Shown here piece after piece: positions 11,608 to 29,314 of a DNA stretch of 64,000 nt; positions within the stretch are counted from its first letter, which is position 1, and each line of letters opens with the position of its first letter. The DNA comes from Bdellovibrio bacteriovorus (GTDB lineage: Bacteria; Bdellovibrionota; Bdellovibrionia; Bdellovibrionales; Bdellovibrionaceae). The notes beneath the pieces are model-generated. The model saw nothing but the letters and a program-made list of their open reading frames with translations. It did not search any database and was not told where the DNA came from. The stretch is from NCBI RefSeq assembly GCF_002208115.1, contig NZ_CP020946.1, positions 3,534,001 through 3,598,000 of the forward strand. The letters run 5' to 3'. A program made the position numbers and the translations under genes.

Positions 11608-13020
11608 ATGACCGGTAAAGATGTATTGAAGTTCGCCAATGAAAAAGGCGCGAAAATGGTGGATCTGAAGTTCTGCGATATGCTTGGAACTTGGCAGCAC
11701 CTGACTGTGCCTTTGCACCAACTGACTGCTGAGGCTTTTGAAGAAGGCTACGGCTTTGACGGAAGCTCCATCCGCGGATGGAAAGGGATCGAGGAATCAG
11801 ACATGATCATCATGCCGGATCCTTCCACAGCGATGATGGACCCCTTCATGCAGGTTCCAACATTGTCTTTGATCTGCGATGTCTGCCTTCCTGAAACACT
11901 TCAAGCTTACAATCGTGACCCCCGCCAAGTGGTGAAAAAAGCCATCGCTTACATGCAGTCCACCGGGATTGCTGACACAGCTTACTTCGGTCCGGAAGCG
12001 GAATTCTTCATCTTTGATGACATCCGTTACGAACAAACCAACAACTCTGCCTTCTATATGATCGACAGTGACGAAGCTGTCTGGAACACCGGCCGCGACG
12101 AAGGTGGCAAAAATCTGGGTTACAAAGTCCGTCCTAAAGAGGGTTACTTCCCGGCCCTGCCAACAGACTCCCAGCAGGATCTAAGAACCGAAATCTGCCT
12201 TGAACTTGAAAGATGCGGCATGCAAGTGGAACGTCATCACCACGAAGTTGCCTCCAGCCAGGGTGAGATCAACTTCCGCTTCGACACCGCCCTGAACATG
12301 GGCGACAAAATGATGTGGTTCAAATACATCGTGAAGAACGTGGCAAAACGCTACGGTAAAACCGTGACCTTCATGCCAAAACCGATCTTCGGCGACAACG
12401 GTTCAGGCATGCACATCCATATGTCCCTGTGGAAAGATGGAAAAAACCTGTTCGCGGGCAACAAATACGCCGGCCTTTCTGAAATGGCTTTGCATTACAT
12501 CGGCGGTGTTTTGAAACACGCTCCGGCTCTTTGCGGTATCATCAACCCGACAACCAACTCTTACAAGCGTCTGGTTCCGGGCTTTGAAGCTCCGACAAAA
12601 CTGGCTTACAGCTTCAAAAACCGTTCTGCGGCAATGCGCATCCCGAACTCGGGTCCAAATCCGAAGGCAAAACGTATTGAGTTCCGCACTCCAGATCCAT
12701 CTGCCAACATTTATCTGGCGGAAGCAGCCATCCTGATGGCGGGTCTTGACGGCATTATCAATAAAATCAATCCGGGTGATCCACTGGACAAAGACATCTA
12801 CGGTTTGCCGCCTCAAGAGGCAGCCGCGATCCCTTCTGTTCCGGGCACTTTGGAAGAAAGCTTGAATCATCTTATGAAAAACTGCAGCTTCCTGAAAAAA
12901 GGCGATGTTTTCACTGATGACTTGATCGAAACCTGGGTTCAGTACAAAATCGACAAAGAAGTGCGTCCGGTTCAACAAAGACCGGTTCCCTACGAGTTCC
13001 ACCTGTACTACGATTGCTAA
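11608..13020 (+). CDS. glnA: Glutamine synthetase, type I
   Basis: 470-residue GSI subunit of the dodecamer that makes glutamine from glutamate, ammonia and ATP. Motifs: FDGSSIRGW (N-terminal beta-grasp latch), [10 protein letters not shown], the metal-binding [19 protein letters not shown], the ATP-binding [18 protein letters not shown], the glutamate loop [13 protein letters not shown], and the IYGLPPQE site whose Tyr398 corresponds to the adenylylated tyrosine of GSI-beta enzymes. GGGAGG lies 6 bp before the ATG. Presence of Tyr51 in GlnB and Tyr398 here suggests the classical GlnD/GlnE cascade. Confidence 0.98.
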
Positions 13021-22238: not shown

Positions 22239-24617
22239 GTGAGAAAAGTATCCTTGGATGTCCGACAATTTGCCCTGCCCTGCCCTCGACGCGGAAGCAT
22301 CGAGCTGCATTCCGGCTATGGCGCCCCTCCGATGAGCGGGCAGGAAATCCACGTGGCCATTCAGCGCCGCCGTCAGCGTGAATTTGATGACTATACTCCG
22401 GAAAAGAAAATGAGCTGGGTCTTTGAGGCCGGGCCTTATGAATTCCATGTTTCCGGACGTGCCGACGGCATCACTGAAAATCCGGTGCAGATCGAAGAAA
22501 TCAAAACGGCTTTTGATGTCGAAGAACTTTGGCGCAAGCTGCGTTCGGATGACAACCATCCTTACATCTGGCAACTGCGCACCTATGGATACTTCCACTA
22601 CAAGGAAACCGGGCGCATTCCGTTTTTGAATCTGCATCTGGTTTCATCCCGCAATTTCAAATCCATGGACCTGCGTGTAGAGCTGGACATCGCCCATTAT
22701 GAATTGTGGCTGGCTTTGCGCCTGGAGGAACTGGTTGAAGAAACCAAGGTCAAAGAAAAGCTTTTCAAAGCCCGCCAGAAAATGGCGGAGGAAATGTCTT
22801 TCCCCTTTGCGACCCCGCGTCCGGGCCAGCGGGAGCTGATTGAAAGCATCGAAGCCCAAGTGGCTGATGAACATCCTTTGCTGGTCCAGGCCCCGACGGG
22901 CTTGGGAAAAACCGTGGGTGTGCTTTATCCGAATCTGAAGGACTCTTTGTCCCGCGGGCAAAAAACCGTGTACGTGACACCCAAGAACTCGCAGCATATT
23001 GTCGCAGAAGAAGCGGTTGAAAAGCTGCAGGAACAAGGCAGCAAGATCCGTTCTTTGACCCTGACAGCAAAAAGCAAAATGTGCCTTAAGGCCGAAACCC
23101 TGTGCAATCCGGGTTACTGTGAATTTGCGCGTGAATACTACACCAAACTTGCCGAGCATGATCTGGTAAACAAACTTTCCAAGAAGCGCAAACTGACTCA
23201 GGAAAAACTTGTCGAAATGGGCAAAGAATTCGAGGTCTGCCCGTTTGAACTTTCTGTCGAAGCCATCGAGCGCGCCGACGTGGTGATTGGTGATTACAAC
23301 TATGCCTTTGCCCCACGAAGTCTGCTGGGCCGTCTTTCTGAGCCCTTACTTGAAGCGGGTGAAAAACCGAATCTGGTGATTGATGAAGCCCACAATCTTC
23401 CAAGCCGGGCGCAGGACTATTTCTCGCCGTCATTGAGTGTGCAGGAACTGGATATTCTGGAAGGTGACTTCACCAAGCTTCCCGCGACCTTTTCATTGCA
23501 GGCCGGATCTTTGATCCGCAAAGCCAAGTCGCTTATCCAGGAATATGGCGAAGAGGGCGGTTCCCGCAAAGTGGATATCGATATTGAACCTTTCCTGGAT
23601 CATGAACGCGCGATTCGCGCCCTGACCACAGAATACCTTGAAAGCGAAACCGAAATCATCACCCGTGACCCGATGCTGCGCCTGATGAATCTGTGGAGTG
23701 ACTTTATCGCGGCCCTTGAATACAGCGGTCCGGAGTTTTTCACGACTTATCAAAACAGCCGCTTCACGGAAATGTTGAAGGTCACCTGCTGTGATGCCTC
23801 GGAGCAACTGAAAATTGCCTATAAGCAGTTCAAGAATGTCGTGGCATTTTCTGCCACCCTGAAGCCTTTCACCTACTATCAGGAGCTTTTGGGGTTTGAT
23901 CTGGAAAAATCCAAGACCTTGGAATTCCAGTCGCCTTTTAAACCCGAGAACCGTCAGTTGATGATCATCCCGCAGATTTCCACCAAGCTCAGCGACCGCG
24001 TGGTCAGCTCGGGCAAAGTGGCCGAGGTTATTTCCCGGGTCACCCGCGTGAAAGCAGGCAATTACATTGCCCTGTTCCCAAGTTTTGAGTTTCTGGCGCA
24101 AGTGGAAAAACAGCTTCAAGTCCCGCACCTGCGTGTGCTTCGCCAAGAGCGCGACATGAAACAACTGGATGTGCAGATTTATCTGGAAGAAATGAAAGCC
24201 GCCAACGAGCCTATCTTGTTGTTAGGTGTGCAAGGCGGTGTGTTTTCAGAAGGCGTTGATTTCCCGGGTGACATGCTGATCGGAGCCTTTGTCATTGGCC
24301 CGGCGTTACCAAGCTTTGATTTTGAGCGCGAACAGATTCGCACCTACTTTGACGGACGCTATGGCAAAGAAAACGGCTTTAACTACACTTATGTGTATCC
24401 GGCCATGGCCAAAGCCATTCAGTCGGCAGGCCGGGTGATCAGGTCTGAAACCGACAAGGGTGTGATCATTCTGATGGATTCGCGTTTCTTGAATCCGGTT
24501 TACGCCGAAGCCATGCCACAAGGATGGTTCAAGGAAAGTCCGCGCGAGCTGGTATCACAAAAGATCCTTTCTGATCTTGAAACTTTCTGGAAGAACAGTG
24601 AAGCGCCATGCTCTTAA
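22239..24617 (+). CDS. PD-(D/E)XK nuclease fused to XPD/DinG-type helicase
   Basis: 792-residue fusion. Residues 1-165 hold a RecB/Cas4-like nuclease core: Asp76 in GRADGI, Glu87-Ile-Lys89 and the trailing Gln112-x3-Tyr116. Residues about 185-780 are a superfamily 2 helicase of the XPD/DinG type: Walker A APTGLGKT (218-225), four cysteines placed as in the Fe-S domain (282, 289, 294, 334), DEAH at 382-385, and motif VI QSAGRVIRS. It should unwind DNA 5'-3' and cut it. Start is a GTG at 22239; a TTG five codons later is possible. The last 10 bp overlap the DEDDh/GIY-YIG gene, implying joint translation. Confidence 0.88.
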   Translation: MRKVSLDVRQFALPCPRRGSIELHSGYGAPPMSGQEIHVAIQRRRQREFDDYTPEKKMSWVFEAGPYEFHVSGRADGITENPVQIEEIKTAFDVEELWRKLRSDDNHPYIWQLRTYGYFHYKETGRIPFLNLHLVSSRNFKSMDLRVELDIAHYELWLALRLEELVEETKVKEKLFKARQKMAEEMSFPFATPRPGQRELIESIEAQVADEHPLLVQAPTGLGKTVGVLYPNLKDSLSRGQKTVYVTPKNSQHIVAEEAVEKLQEQGSKIRSLTLTAKSKMCLKAETLCNPGYCEFAREYYTKLAEHDLVNKLSKKRKLTQEKLVEMGKEFEVCPFELSVEAIERADVVIGDYNYAFAPRSLLGRLSEPLLEAGEKPNLVIDEAHNLPSRAQDYFSPSLSVQELDILEGDFTKLPATFSLQAGSLIRKAKSLIQEYGEEGGSRKVDIDIEPFLDHERAIRALTTEYLESETEIITRDPMLRLMNLWSDFIAALEYSGPEFFTTYQNSRFTEMLKVTCCDASEQLKIAYKQFKNVVAFSATLKPFTYYQELLGFDLEKSKTLEFQSPFKPENRQLMIIPQISTKLSDRVVSSGKVAEVISRVTRVKAGNYIALFPSFEFLAQVEKQLQVPHLRVLRQERDMKQLDVQIYLEEMKAANEPILLLGVQGGVFSEGVDFPGDMLIGAFVIGPALPSFDFEREQIRTYFDGRYGKENGFNYTYVYPAMAKAIQSAGRVIRSETDKGVIILMDSRFLNPVYAEAMPQGWFKESPRELVSQKILSDLETFWKNSEAPCS

Positions 24618-26173
24618 AAGATCTTCCGGTTTTCTTTTTGGATTTACAAACCACGGGGGCTAAACCCGGCGCTGCTGATATTCTGGAAGTGGCTTGGTCA
24701 TTGTCCGACAAAGACGAAGTTCACAGCGTGCTTTCGGCACAAGCCGAAGACCGCCCGGTGCCTCGTCGCATTTTGTCCCTGACCGGGATCGCTGCTGAAG
24801 AACTTGAAAGTGCGACACCACTGTCTGAAATTTTTGAGCGTCTGTACGTGGATATTCAAGATCGACCGGCGGTGATTCACTTTGCCCAGTTTGAAAGACC
24901 TTTTCTGAAGGCTGCTTTTGAAACCTTCGAGCGCAGCGAATTCCCCATCATCTGCACCCATGAAATCGCCAAACGACTTTTTCCCAACCTGCCCGCACGC
25001 GGGATCAAGGGACTGGCAGGATATTTCGGTCATGCATCCGGGGAATTTAAGCGGGGGGCAAGCCATGTGGAAGCCACGAGAATAATCTGGCAGCACTTGG
25101 TGAAAGAACTGGAAGGCAAAGGAATATTGACCTTCGTGGATATGCAGACCTGGCTATCCACGGAGGCTCCCAAAAAGCGCACCAAATATGAATACCCAAT
25201 GGCCAAGGAAAAACGCCTGAACCTTCCCAAGGTGCCGGGAGTTTACCGCTATGTTTCGCAATGGGGTGAAATCCTTTACGTCGGCAAAGCCACGTCCCTG
25301 CATGACCGGGTGAACAGTTACTTCCGCGGGCAAAAGGGCCGTGACTCTTTCAAACTTGAGATGCTGACACAGGCCTATGATCTGATCGTGACAGAGTGCC
25401 GGACGCCGCTGGAATCCGCTTTGCTTGAGACCGACGAAATCAAAAAATACAACCCTCGCTACAACATCAGCCTAAAAGCTGGCGAGCGTGGTTTGGTATT
25501 CTTTAGCCGTGACTTTACATCAATGAGTCCGGAACAAGATGACGAACACAGCATCGGGCCTTTCTCGAATGCTTTGGTCTTTGATTCGATTCTGAAGCTG
25601 AACGAATCCCTGAAATCGGAAGACCAGACATTTAATCCCGAAATGTTCTTTGAACCTTTGGATGCAGAACTTCTGAAATCCGGTTTTGCTCTTTTCTGCG
25701 AACGTCTGGGAAAAAGCCCGGATGTGTTTAAGTCCTTAAGGTCTATTTTCGCACAAGGCTTGATCTTTGTGAAAAATGCTCCGGACGAAGAAGAACTCGA
25801 TGAAGCCGAAATCGAGGCCGAAGCTGCGGACTGCGATGACGATACCGGCGAAGAAATCGAAATTGAACTGACTGCCGAAGACATTGCCGACAAATTTGAA
25901 CGTCACTTTAAACGTGCGGCGCACGCTTACCTGCGCGCCCGTCGCATGACCAAACTTTTAAACTGCGACATTGAATATTCCCTCAGCGCCAAAGGCAAAA
26001 AATTCCAACTGCATTTGCGTGGCGGACACCCCACCCCAGAGCCCACACCCCAAACACGCAGCACCTGGAGCGGGCATTCGGTGGACACCTACGACCGCAT
26101 GGCCGTTCTGCTGACCGAACTCGAACGCGTGCGCAGCAAAAATGGCCAAGTGTCAGTCCAGCGGAAATATTGA
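24608..26173 (+). CDS. DEDDh exonuclease-like domain fused to GIY-YIG nuclease
   Basis: 521 residues. Residues 7-170 have the fold of the DNA polymerase III epsilon family, but the catalytic motifs deviate: ExoI reads D12-L-Q14 instead of DxE, ExoII HFAQFE (Glu96 instead of Asp), and ExoIII lacks the normal His and Asp (Lys148, His153). Residues about 210-300 are a UvrC/Cho-like GIY-YIG nuclease: GVYRYV, ILYVGKA, the Arg in LHDRVNSYF and a Glu in LLETDEIKKYNPRYN. A very acidic stretch lies near 395-425. It overlaps the helicase gene by 10 bp. Probably a DNA repair protein in which GIY-YIG is the active nuclease. Confidence 0.85.
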   Translation: MLLKDLPVFFLDLQTTGAKPGAADILEVAWSLSDKDEVHSVLSAQAEDRPVPRRILSLTGIAAEELESATPLSEIFERLYVDIQDRPAVIHFAQFERPFLKAAFETFERSEFPIICTHEIAKRLFPNLPARGIKGLAGYFGHASGEFKRGASHVEATRIIWQHLVKELEGKGILTFVDMQTWLSTEAPKKRTKYEYPMAKEKRLNLPKVPGVYRYVSQWGEILYVGKATSLHDRVNSYFRGQKGRDSFKLEMLTQAYDLIVTECRTPLESALLETDEIKKYNPRYNISLKAGERGLVFFSRDFTSMSPEQDDEHSIGPFSNALVFDSILKLNESLKSEDQTFNPEMFFEPLDAELLKSGFALFCERLGKSPDVFKSLRSIFAQGLIFVKNAPDEEELDEAEIEAEAADCDDDTGEEIEIELTAEDIADKFERHFKRAAHAYLRARRMTKLLNCDIEYSLSAKGKKFQLHLRGGHPTPEPTPQTRSTWSGHSVDTYDRMAVLLTELERVRSKNGQVSVQRKY

Positions 26174-26367: not shown

Positions 26368-26601
26368 ATGATGAACAAACAAATCTCAAAAGAAAATTGG
26401 AAGAGTTTGAAAGCCGAGCTGCGTGCAGCTTGGAATGAACTGACCGCTGAAGAAATCGAAAGCACACGCGGAAGCATCAAAGCCATCTATGGTTTGGTTC
26501 AGCAGAAATGCGAACTGCATGAAGTAGAAGTAAAAGAAAAACTGACTTCGCTGCTTAAAAAATACGAGCATCCACCGACTCGTTTCCACAAAGTTTCTTA
26601 A
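26368..26601 (+). CDS. Small CsbD-like protein
   Basis: 77 residues, soluble and helical. The start KENWKSLKAELRAAWNELT and the later YGLVQQKCELHEVEVKEKL resemble CsbD-family stress proteins, which are about 60-70 residues. Two adjacent ATG codons (26368, 26371) follow a GGGG-containing ribosome site. Alone between the GIY-YIG gene and an outer-membrane protein gene; the 194 bp upstream must hold its promoter. Role unknown beyond a link of the family with stress. Confidence 0.65.
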   Translation: MMNKQISKENWKSLKAELRAAWNELTAEEIESTRGSIKAIYGLVQQKCELHEVEVKEKLTSLLKKYEHPPTRFHKVS

Positions 26602-26725
26602 CAAACGGCTTGTGTCACCTCCATGACGCATCCTAGGGGTCCCTCTGTTTCCTGCATTCTTTCAGAGGGGCCCCGACTCCTCTCCCGTAAACTCACAATC
26701 AGAAATCACAACAAGGAGAAGCACC

Positions 26726-27241
26726 ATGAAACATCTGATGATTCTATTCACCGGTCTATTGATCGCCACAGGTATTTCCACTCTGGCGCAGGCCCAGACG
26801 GCTGAAGATATAAAAAACGGAACAAATAACGTAAAGCTCTTGATGGGCTCCACTCAAGCCGCGGTAAACTTTGGCGTTGAGTACGAGCGCCGTACTGGCA
26901 CTTTCGGGTTGGGCGCTATGCTCATGCATTCCACGAAAAACTCGGATGCGAACAAACCCGAAAGCACCACGCTGGGCGCCTTTGTGGCGTCTCACCTGTA
27001 CGACCAGAATGACCTGGATCTTTACATCTCTCCAGGGGTGGCGGTGACCAATATGGATCAGATCCAGAGTTCCGGAGACGATGAAACACTGTTTGGACCA
27101 ACACTTAATTTAGGAGCGACCTACACTATCAACGCAAATTGGGGTGTGGGTTTCGAGTACCTGACGATCTATAACTGGTTCAGCGACAAAACCGCAGACC
27201 ACTATAACTTTGCGAATGCCGTGCTTTCATACAACTTCTAG
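26726..27241 (+). CDS. Small outer-membrane beta-barrel protein
   Basis: 171 residues. Signal peptide ends at AQAQ (about residue 24). The mature protein is a set of amphipathic strands, for example VNFGVEYERRTGTFGLGAML and the last strand FANAVLSYNF ending in Phe, the usual signal for barrel insertion. An eight-stranded OmpW/OmpA-like barrel is plausible from the length. AAGGAG lies before the ATG. Followed by a strong terminator, so monocistronic. Confidence 0.75.
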   Translation: MKHLMILFTGLLIATGISTLAQAQTAEDIKNGTNNVKLLMGSTQAAVNFGVEYERRTGTFGLGAMLMHSTKNSDANKPESTTLGAFVASHLYDQNDLDLYISPGVAVTNMDQIQSSGDDETLFGPTLNLGATYTINANWGVGFEYLTIYNWFSDKTADHYNFANAVLSYNF

Positions 27242-27395: not shown

Positions 27396-28835
27396 ATGAA
27401 AAAGGACGATGTATTTTATAATGCCATGCTGGCCCGGGATCCCCGTTTTGACGGCAAGTTTTTTGTCGGAGTCAAAACCACGGGTATCTATTGCCGTCCG
27501 ATCTGTCCTGCGAAACCCAAACGTGAAAACGTCGAGTTCTTTTCGAATCACTTGGCCGCTGAAAAGGCGGGCTATCGTCCCTGCCTGCGCTGCCGTCCAG
27601 AAAGTGCGCCTCAGTCCCCGGCCTGGATCGGGAAATCAGCCTTGGTTCGCCGTGCGATCAAGATGATTGATAAAATTGAAACCCTGGAATTCAACGAAGA
27701 TGAATTTGCAGAACTGTTTGGGGTCAGCGCCCGTCATTTGCGCCGGCTTTTTATCGAAGACGTCGGAAAAACCCCGAAGCAATTGTCTTTCGAAAATCGC
27801 CTGAATCTGGCAAGACAACTGATCACCGAAACCGCGCTGCCTATCACTGACGTCGCCTTTGCGGCCGGCTTTAATTCGATTCGCAGATTCAACGATGCGT
27901 TTAAAGAGCGCTTCAAAAAAAGCCCTTCAGAAATCCGTCGAAAACCTGTGAAAGATGATTCCACTTTGACCATTCGTCTTTCCTATCGCCCGCCTTTTGA
28001 TTTTAACGGTTTGCTGCACTTTTATCGATCCCACGCCGTGGGACAGCTAGAGTGGTTTGAAGAAGGCGTCATGCACAGAATCGTTGAGGTGAACGGCAAA
28101 GTGGGACAGATCACCTTGAGCGATCTGCCTGATGAATCGTGCATAAAGCTGCAGATCAACTTCCCCGACACAACGGCCTTGCATGCCATCATATCCCGCG
28201 TGCGCAGCCTGATGGATCTGGATTCAGACCCGGTTGTTGTTGCCAATACGCTAGAGACCGACAAAGACATGAAGGCCTTGCTGAAAAAACATCCGGGCAT
28301 CCGGCTGCCTTCGTCCTGGGATCCGTTTGAAGTGGTCGTCGCCGCCATTTTGGGTCAGGTCGTGAGTGTGGAGCGGGGCCGGGCGCTGGTGAATGATTTG
28401 ATCGAACTTGCCGGCAGCGACTCAGGATTTTTGCGCGATGGAAAATCGGTGCGGCTGTTCCCGACTCCTGCGCAGGTGATTAAAGCTGATCTGAAAAATT
28501 TAAAAACCACCACCCGCCGAAAAGAGACTCTGGTGGCCCTTTCCAAGGCCCTGGTCAAAGGTGAACTTTCGCTGGAGCCTACCCAAGATGTGGATAGTTT
28601 CGTGGAAAAGATCCTGGGCATTCCCGGGATTGGTCCGTGGACAGCCAGCTACATGGCACTGAAGGCTCTTCGTCACACCGATGCCTTCCCTGCCACCGAT
28701 TTGATTATTGCTCGTGCGATGGCTGAACACCCCAAGACCAAGTTTGAAAATTTCAGCCCGTGGCGCGGCTATGTCGCCGCCTTGTTGTGGCGGGAGTATT
28801 CCCACGTCTTGAAGAAAACCCGGAGGAAAAAATGA
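27396..28835 (+). CDS. Ada-type regulator fused to AlkA DNA glycosylase
   Basis: 479 residues in three parts. Residues 1-70 are an Ada zinc-binding domain with its four cysteines (IYCRPICPA and RPCLRCRP). Residues about 85-190 are an AraC-type double helix-turn-helix (ITDVAFAAGFNSIRRFNDAF). The rest is a 3-methyladenine DNA glycosylase of the AlkA type: AlkA N-domain, helix-hairpin-helix LGIPGIGPWTASYMALK and the catalytic Asp in FPATDLIIARAM. It should excise alkylated bases and may also sense methyl phosphotriesters and regulate transcription, as Ada does. The stop overlaps the ATG of ogt (ATGA), so the pair is coupled. Confidence 0.93.
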   Translation: MKKDDVFYNAMLARDPRFDGKFFVGVKTTGIYCRPICPAKPKRENVEFFSNHLAAEKAGYRPCLRCRPESAPQSPAWIGKSALVRRAIKMIDKIETLEFNEDEFAELFGVSARHLRRLFIEDVGKTPKQLSFENRLNLARQLITETALPITDVAFAAGFNSIRRFNDAFKERFKKSPSEIRRKPVKDDSTLTIRLSYRPPFDFNGLLHFYRSHAVGQLEWFEEGVMHRIVEVNGKVGQITLSDLPDESCIKLQINFPDTTALHAIISRVRSLMDLDSDPVVVANTLETDKDMKALLKKHPGIRLPSSWDPFEVVVAAILGQVVSVERGRALVNDLIELAGSDSGFLRDGKSVRLFPTPAQVIKADLKNLKTTTRRKETLVALSKALVKGELSLEPTQDVDSFVEKILGIPGIGPWTASYMALKALRHTDAFPATDLIIARAMAEHPKTKFENFSPWRGYVAALLWREYSHVLKKTRRKK

Positions 28836-29314
28836 ATCTGCTTCAATGGAAAATGAGTTCCCCGTTAGGGGATCTGTACATGGTCGCCTCTGAAAAAGGC
28901 CTGCAGTCCCTGTATTGGGAAAAGACCACGGGGATTCCGTTGGCCCCTTCCCTTACCGGGAAAGACGGTGCCGTTAAAATTCTTAAGCAAACTGAAACCG
29001 AACTTACCGAATATTTTAAAGGCCAGCGCCAGGATTTCGATGTCCCGCTGGATGTTGTCGGGACAGAGTTTCAAGAGTCGGTCTGGCGGCAGCTTAAAAA
29101 AATTCCTTATGGCAAGACCGTGTCTTACACCGACATCGCCCGCCGGATAAAAAAAGAAAAAGCGGTTCGCGCGGTGGGAACAGCCAATGGAAAGAATCCG
29201 ATTTGCATCATTGTGCCCTGCCATCGAGTGATTGCCGCAGGCGGGGGCCTGGGCGGGTATTCTGGGGCCTGGGCGGGTATTCTGGGGGCTTGGAACGCAA
29301 AGAAGCTTTGCTAA
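28832..29314 (+). CDS. ogt: O6-methylguanine-DNA methyltransferase, C-terminus frame-shifted
   Basis: 160 residues as read. Suicide enzyme that moves a methyl group from O6-methylguanine to its own cysteine. The active site is intact: PCHRVI with the acceptor Cys, preceded by the helix-turn-helix VGTANGKNP. The tail is abnormal. A 20-bp tandem duplication (29244-29263 and 29264-29283) shifts the frame after GGYSG, so the normal GGLERKEALLRLE end is replaced by AWAGILGAWNAKKLC. With a single copy the gene would end at 29331 with a family-like C-terminus. The start is the ATG in the ATGA overlap with the AlkA fusion, behind GGAGG; a longer in-frame start lies inside that gene. Confidence 0.9.
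   Translation: MNLLQWKMSSPLGDLYMVASEKGLQSLYWEKTTGIPLAPSLTGKDGAVKILKQTETELTEYFKGQRQDFDVPLDVVGTEFQESVWRQLKKIPYGKTVSYTDIARRIKKEKAVRAVGTANGKNPICIIVPCHRVIAAGGGLGGYSGAWAGILGAWNAKKLC
29244..29283 (+). repeat. Perfect 20-bp tandem duplication inside ogt
   Basis: The unit ggggcctgggcgggtattct occurs twice head to tail. It is not a multiple of three, so it shifts the reading frame of the last 20 codons. It could be a recent slippage mutation, a phase-variable switch or an assembly artefact. Confidence 0.95.

Follow-up and report, generated by a model that had tools for sequence, protein, structure and literature searches.

A candidate two-protein DNA-damage repair unit in Bdellovibrio bacteriovorus: an EndoDinG helicase–nuclease and a pseudo-exonuclease/GIY-YIG protein

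What might an XPD/DinG-type helicase that carries its own nuclease domain do together with the product of a second nuclease gene that overlaps it? This question is raised by a 64,000-nucleotide stretch of DNA from Bdellovibrio bacteriovorus (contig NZ_CP020946.1, positions 3,534,001 to 3,598,000 of the forward strand; hereafter the window), which belongs to a genome of 3.77 Mb in one contig. A first-pass annotation of this stretch had proposed a two-gene unit, in which a PD-(D/E)XK nuclease fused to a helicase (gene 1) is followed by a DEDDh-like domain fused to a GIY-YIG nuclease (gene 2), and had left repair, defence, and degradation of prey DNA open as functions. Both open reading frames were found at the positions given there, on the same strand and with the same 10-nt overlap (Table 1). 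The domains that they encode, the genes found beside them, and the distribution of the pair suggest that the two genes form a two-protein DNA-damage repair unit, a reading to which a probability of roughly 0.55 is attached.

Results

Gene 1 is an EndoDinG helicase–nuclease

Gene 1 encodes an intact PD-(D/E)XK site together with an XPD/DinG-family Fe-S helicase, to which a 5'–3' polarity is assigned by family. Pfam matches were obtained to Helicase_C_2 (5.7e-38) and DEAD_2 (3.7e-14), and a full-length relative could be found in the PDB (9kqh_A, residues 4-763, E 9e-90). The four Fe-S cysteines (C282, C289, C294, and C334) and the helicase residues showed no variation across 25 orthologues, and the nuclease set H38, E55, D76, E87, K89, Q112, and Y116 was kept in all 25 sequences of an alignment that spans three phyla and includes Listeria, Enterococcus, and Legionella. 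Pfam PDDEXK_1 was found in 3 of these 25 members, and a profile of the N-terminal domain matched residues 3-183 of 9kqh (1.8e-27). Pfam, 9kqh, and the invariant residues therefore agree with the domain assignment made in the first-pass annotation, including the PD-(D/E)XK fold proposed for the N-terminal region. The GTG start fits because homologues open with MRK(I/V) in the same alignment column. The helicase shares 91% identity with its counterpart in B. bacteriovorus kdesi, the sole return of a single-sequence scan of genome contigs, and 98% identity with another orthologue. The 9kqh_A chain reads GRAAG where every aligned relative has GRxDG and is probably an engineered nuclease-dead mutant; a search of open-licence papers on 9KQH gave nothing relevant.

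Gene 1 is a member of a type that is already known, so that the description of this system as little-described does not hold for the helicase. EndoDinG is named in a review (Cheng 2025, PMC11981726), whose representative is the protein of B. bacteriovorus HD100; endonuclease activity of the HD100 protein is reported there as unpublished data, and a repair function is predicted. Gene 1 shares with the residue set named in that review the PD-(D/E)XK residues H, E, D, E, and K, and it has the DinG/XPD motor with the four-cysteine Fe-S motif. The main text of the review describes no GIY-YIG or metallo-β-lactamase neighbour, and the words GIY-YIG and UvrC are absent from it. In ExoDinG, the S. aureus type, an epsilon-like exonuclease is fused to the helicase, whereas gene 1 has PD-(D/E)XK at its N terminus and the DEDDh-like domain of the locus lies on gene 2, just as the earlier annotation had set out. 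ExoDinG and pExoDinG (PMC11981726) resemble the present pair in that an epsilon-like exonuclease or pseudo-exonuclease domain accompanies a DinG helicase, but the pExoDinG domain is DEDDy-like and fused to the helicase, whereas that of gene 2 is DEDDh-like and part of a separate protein that also bears GIY-YIG.

Gene 2 appears to combine a dead exonuclease with an intact GIY-YIG site

Gene 2 matched RNase_T (1.3e-6) and GIY-YIG (2.8e-6) in Pfam and, in the PDB, UvrC N-terminal domains and PolC/DnaQ exonucleases. Its GIY-YIG site is intact in sequence, with Y213, Y224, R234, E269, and N286 invariant across 20 orthologues. The exonuclease domain, as judged from its motifs, looks like a pseudo-exonuclease that is catalytically dead but retains its fold; of the earlier reading of this protein, both domains are thus upheld by homology, but the catalytic residues of the first are missing. 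Motif I reads D-x-Q rather than D-x-E and motif II HxxxFE rather than HNxxFD in 29 of 29 homologues (a count that leaves out the diverged pairs of genomes G313 and G314), and motif III (HxxxxD) is also lost in those rows that are aligned over that region. By comparison, motifs I–III are present in all 14 exonuclease/GIY-YIG relatives that are not paired with an EndoDinG helicase, drawn from Bdellovibrionota, Actinomycetota, Bacteroidota, and Pseudomonadota, apart from H in place of N in motif II of the Persicobacter sequence. Core GIY-YIG residues are kept throughout the gene 2 group, and a few control rows deviate. Loss of the exonuclease motifs coincides with presence of the helicase in all cases examined, and it is old, because homologues with only 32% identity to the window's gene 2 share it.

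The architecture of gene 2 is itself already known as "Cho+Exo" (PMC1564403; PRK07883, NCBIfam NF005906), in which a DnaQ-like domain is likewise followed by a UvrC-type GIY-YIG domain. PRK07883 gave the best NCBIfam matches of gene 2, yet the score of 135.7 bits falls far short of the cut-off (495), and the C-terminal third of gene 2 differs from this family, because the match stops at residue 322. A further difference is that the exonuclease motifs intact in the unpaired relatives are replaced in gene 2 (DxQ, HxxxFE, no HxxxxD). Structure predictions made with one homologue each reached a mean pLDDT (predicted local distance difference test) of 41.7 for the N-terminal domain of gene 1 and 34.5 for gene 2 and were not used.

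Table 1. Positions of the gene pair, its domains, and genes of its context. Unless a locus is named, positions are those of the window.
Feature	Position	Strand	Details
Gene 1: PD-(D/E)XK nuclease + XPD/DinG Fe-S helicase (EndoDinG type)	22239-24617	+	792 aa, GTG start
N-terminal PD-(D/E)XK nuclease domain of gene 1, residues 1-185	22239-22793	+	Conserved residues, profile match
Helicase motor of gene 1, residues 188-770	22800-24548	+	Walker A APTGLGKT 218-225, DEAH 382-385, Fe-S cysteines 282/289/294/334; Pfam
Overlap of the two reading frames, 10 nt	24608-24617	+	Coordinates
Gene 2: putative pseudo-DEDDh exonuclease + UvrC/Cho-type GIY-YIG nuclease	24608-26173	+	521 aa, ATG start
DEDDh-fold domain of gene 2, about residues 1-173	24608-25126	+	D12-x-Q14, HxxxF-E96, no HxxxxD; fold from PolC/DnaQ profile matches
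GIY-YIG domain of gene 2, residues 199-291	25202-25480	+	Y213, Y224, R234, E269, N286; alignment with UvrC structures
C-terminal third of gene 2	25481-26170	+	No Pfam match above cut-off; acidic stretch at about residues 390-420
Ada-HTH-AlkA fusion, alkylation repair (context)	27396-28835	+	1.2 kb downstream of the pair
Ogt-type methyltransferase (context)	28832-29314	+	ATG at 28832; identified by eye from sequence; 4-nt overlap with Ada-HTH-AlkA
Legionella DNA-damage islands	L088:10163-19605, L089:9001-17864, L090:1871-17562

Gene 2 is almost never found without the helicase gene

The distribution of the two genes was surveyed in 369 genomes of the phylum; beyond the phylum, sampling was through plasmid and phage collections only. 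The helicase was found in 87 genomes and gene 2 in 43. A single one of the 43, G326, gave no helicase match, and its completeness is only 64%; the other 42 have both genes. Co-occurrence gave a Fisher p of about 1e-29, a value that is not corrected for phylogeny. Gene 2 adjoins the helicase gene in 36 of the 42 genomes that contain both, downstream of it in 34 and upstream in 2 (G060 and G075), and it is located elsewhere in the other six. Within the genus Bdellovibrio, 22 of 24 genomes contain the helicase, and the two that do not (G080 and G281) also have no gene 2. Outside the phylum, three Legionella plasmids carry both genes in the window's order with an 8-nt overlap, and Listeria and Enterococcus have the helicase by itself; scans of IMG/VR returned no gene 2 relative and one weak, short helicase match. 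The adjacency in the phylum and the Legionella plasmids thus bear out the earlier proposal of a two-gene unit, and a physical complex of their products is plausible. In G039, which belongs to another family, both genes group within the Bdellovibrio clade, which is consistent with transfer of the pair as a unit. Diverged pairs with the same order and a short gap were also seen in G313 and G314 (L113 and L114), with 34% identity to the window's helicase and 31% to its gene 2.

A metallo-β-lactamase-fold gene is the alternative neighbour

Helicase genes that have no adjacent gene 2 usually have, directly upstream, a gene for a metallo-β-lactamase-fold protein that scores above the cut-off of family TIGR04122, the "ligase-associated DNA damage response exonuclease." The usual setting of this family is beside a ligase (as in L105), whereas the subgroup seen here adjoins EndoDinG. 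This subgroup, taken as proteins with about 328 bits or more against the L065 protein, together with three fragments (G121, G246, and G290), was found in 47 genomes, 44 of them with the helicase, and lies adjacent and upstream in 36, so that about equal numbers of helicase genes in the phylum adjoin this gene (36) and gene 2 (36). None of the 87 helicase genes has both neighbours adjacent, and 15 show neither, some of these being at contig ends. By presence, the 87 helicase genomes divide into 35 with gene 2 only, 37 with the metallo-β-lactamase gene only, 7 with both, and 8 with neither (odds ratio 0.04, p 5.5e-10, phylogeny not corrected for). The window's own genome contains no TIGR04122 protein above the cut-off. 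The idea that the two partners strictly exclude each other was weighed and dropped: it is true for adjacency but untrue for presence, as the seven genomes with both make clear.

In the helicase tree, a supported split (99/92) separates 15 gene 2 rows and one unpaired row from all metallo-β-lactamase rows, with Legionella and G075 as gene 2 exceptions on the metallo-β-lactamase side. The pattern is therefore mostly one of two inherited arrangements, to which a few separate pairings are added, and frequent swapping of single partners is unsupported by a tree that consists mostly of one clade for each neighbour. In genus g12 the two arrangements fall in different helicase clades, so whole units, rather than single partners, may have been exchanged.

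As side observations on this subgroup, the metallo-β-lactamase gene of G121 (L062:8108-8620, C40), one of the 36 adjacent copies, is split into several frames beside an intact helicase gene, and partner-type genes could be found with no EndoDinG match in their genomes at G062:C12:50027-50995, G077:C2:33440-34405, and G081:C68:1993-2967.

The pairing of gene 2 with the helicase, the replaced exonuclease motifs, and the alternative metallo-β-lactamase neighbour appear to be undescribed so far: in the open-licence literature searched, neither the GIY-YIG and metallo-β-lactamase neighbours nor a conserved pseudo-exonuclease was found.

DNA-repair genes occur near some of the pairs

On the Legionella plasmids the pair lies beside umuD, a Y-family polymerase gene, and dinB, with an SRAP gene next to those, and Ku, LigD, or UdgX is present on individual plasmids that carry it. 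Two of these matches, SRAP of L. lytica and dinB of L. sainthelensi, were fragmentary and spread over more than one frame. In the window, the genes for alkylation repair listed in Table 1 follow the pair, and homologues of Ada-AlkA and Ogt adjoin a metallo-β-lactamase/helicase pair in G131, from another family (L067:1586-3599). A small open reading frame between gene 2 and an outer-membrane-like protein at 26726 (26369-26602, + strand) has, by eye only, the look of a CsbD-type stress protein.

Discussion

The reading of the pair as a repair unit draws on the dependence of gene 2 on the helicase, on the replaced exonuclease motifs beside invariant GIY-YIG and PD-(D/E)XK residues, and on context. 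The Legionella surroundings (umuDC, dinB, SRAP, Ku, LigD, and UdgX) speak for repair rather than for defence or the digestion of prey DNA; the alternative neighbour comes from a DNA-damage-response family, TIGR04122; and Ada-AlkA and Ogt are found near both the window pair and the G131 metallo-β-lactamase/helicase pair. For related proteins, Cho is known as the nuclease that cuts on the 3' side in excision repair, and for Cho+Exo proteins incision followed by digestion of the damaged strand has been proposed (PMC1564403); in Bacteroidetes, a GIY-YIG exonuclease is found under SOS-type motifs (PMC8565304). In the repair unit proposed here, the helicase would move 5'–3' along the damaged strand until a bulky or cross-linking lesion stalled it. 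The pseudo-exonuclease may serve to bind either the helicase or single-stranded DNA and so bring the GIY-YIG nuclease to helicase-opened DNA. There this nuclease would make its cut, which in UvrC and Cho lies 3' of the lesion. Cutting or trimming of the displaced strand would be left to the PD-(D/E)XK domain, so that strand removal would fall to the helicase–nuclease, and in the sister arrangement the second nuclease would be the metallo-β-lactamase exonuclease. The order and position of the cuts and the type of lesion are what we infer.

Several observations weigh against this proposal. A search for LexA boxes gave matches no more frequent than chance, none of them near gene 1. The other chromosomal neighbours (72 proteins) are generic, and the repair-gene context comes down to two loci on chromosomes and to the three Legionella plasmids, which are a single lineage and therefore close to a single observation. 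Moreover, a 5'–3' helicase that started from the cut made by GIY-YIG would travel away from a lesion 5' of that cut, which makes the order of events uncertain.

The alternative that survives best, although we consider it doubtful, is that the pair acts, as Dna2 or SLX1 does, on stalled replication forks, flaps, or intermediates of recombination rather than excising base lesions, with the helicase opening the fork and the two nucleases trimming its branches. The N-terminal domain of gene 1 is reported to be most similar to RecE, EXO5, Cas4, AddA, and Dna2 (PMC11981726), GIY-YIG nucleases of the SLX1 kind are known from the literature to cut branched DNA, and the translesion polymerase and non-homologous end-joining genes by the Legionella pairs suit fork trouble as well as lesions. 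However, the GIY-YIG domain of gene 2 is of the UvrC/Cho type rather than the SLX1 type, and the alkylation-repair neighbours point, if weakly, to base damage.

Destruction of incoming phage or plasmid DNA, as by Hachiman or Hna, is improbable. Titles in the literature indicate that helicase–nuclease defence systems exist, and the pair is plasmid-borne and apparently mobile between lineages, but its setting in Legionella is one of repair, defence families are not recurrent among the 72 neighbours, IMG/VR gave no gene 2 relative, and within Bdellovibrio the pair is close to fixed, not scattered, with the helicase in 22 of 24 genomes. The PADLOC model typeIV_DinG (PDLC01439) matches gene 1 at 370 bits, which could be taken as a sign of defence, but the match covers the motor region only and is likely a false positive as a defence annotation. 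CasDinG of type IV CRISPR systems goes with cas genes and an array, whereas the open reading frames near the pair are not cas-like and no CRISPR-like array was found between positions 12000 and 36000 of the window.

More improbable still is that the two are independent repair genes with no functional link, adjacent by descent in one clade. The co-occurrence statistics ignore phylogeny, most gene 2 pairs sit in one helicase clade, and the six genomes with gene 2 away from the helicase would fit such an origin; on the other hand, the pair recurs with its order turned round in G060 and G075, and in Legionella, outside the main clade, gene 2 is without a helicase only in the incomplete G326, and motif loss goes with helicase presence in each case examined. 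Degradation of prey DNA is very unlikely: the host is a predator, but the pair also occurs on Legionella plasmids and the helicase alone in Listeria and Enterococcus, neither N terminus has a secretion signal by eye, and an ATP-dependent Fe-S helicase is better suited to the cytoplasm. Among the functions that the first-pass annotation had left open, repair is thus the one favoured, by the Legionella context, and nothing found here supports the other two.

With repair as the preferred reading, it may be suggested, tentatively, that bacteria build a modular machine for excision or crosslink repair around EndoDinG, in which a single position is open to a second nuclease. That position would be taken either by GIY-YIG, brought in through the dead exonuclease, or by an SNM1-like metallo-β-lactamase exonuclease. 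If so, this machine would parallel the use of the eukaryotic XPD/FANCJ helicases with GIY-YIG, PD-(D/E)XK, and SNM1 nucleases. EndoDinG has had a name but no known pathway or partner in the open-licence literature, and the two nuclease neighbours are candidate partners for it that hint at a role in DNA-damage repair. Gene 2 also appears to be a clear case of an enzyme domain retained without its catalytic residues exactly where a helicase–nuclease occurs. If the lesion-repair reading is true, the pair would be a bacterial means of repairing bulky or cross-linked lesions with an XPD-family helicase.

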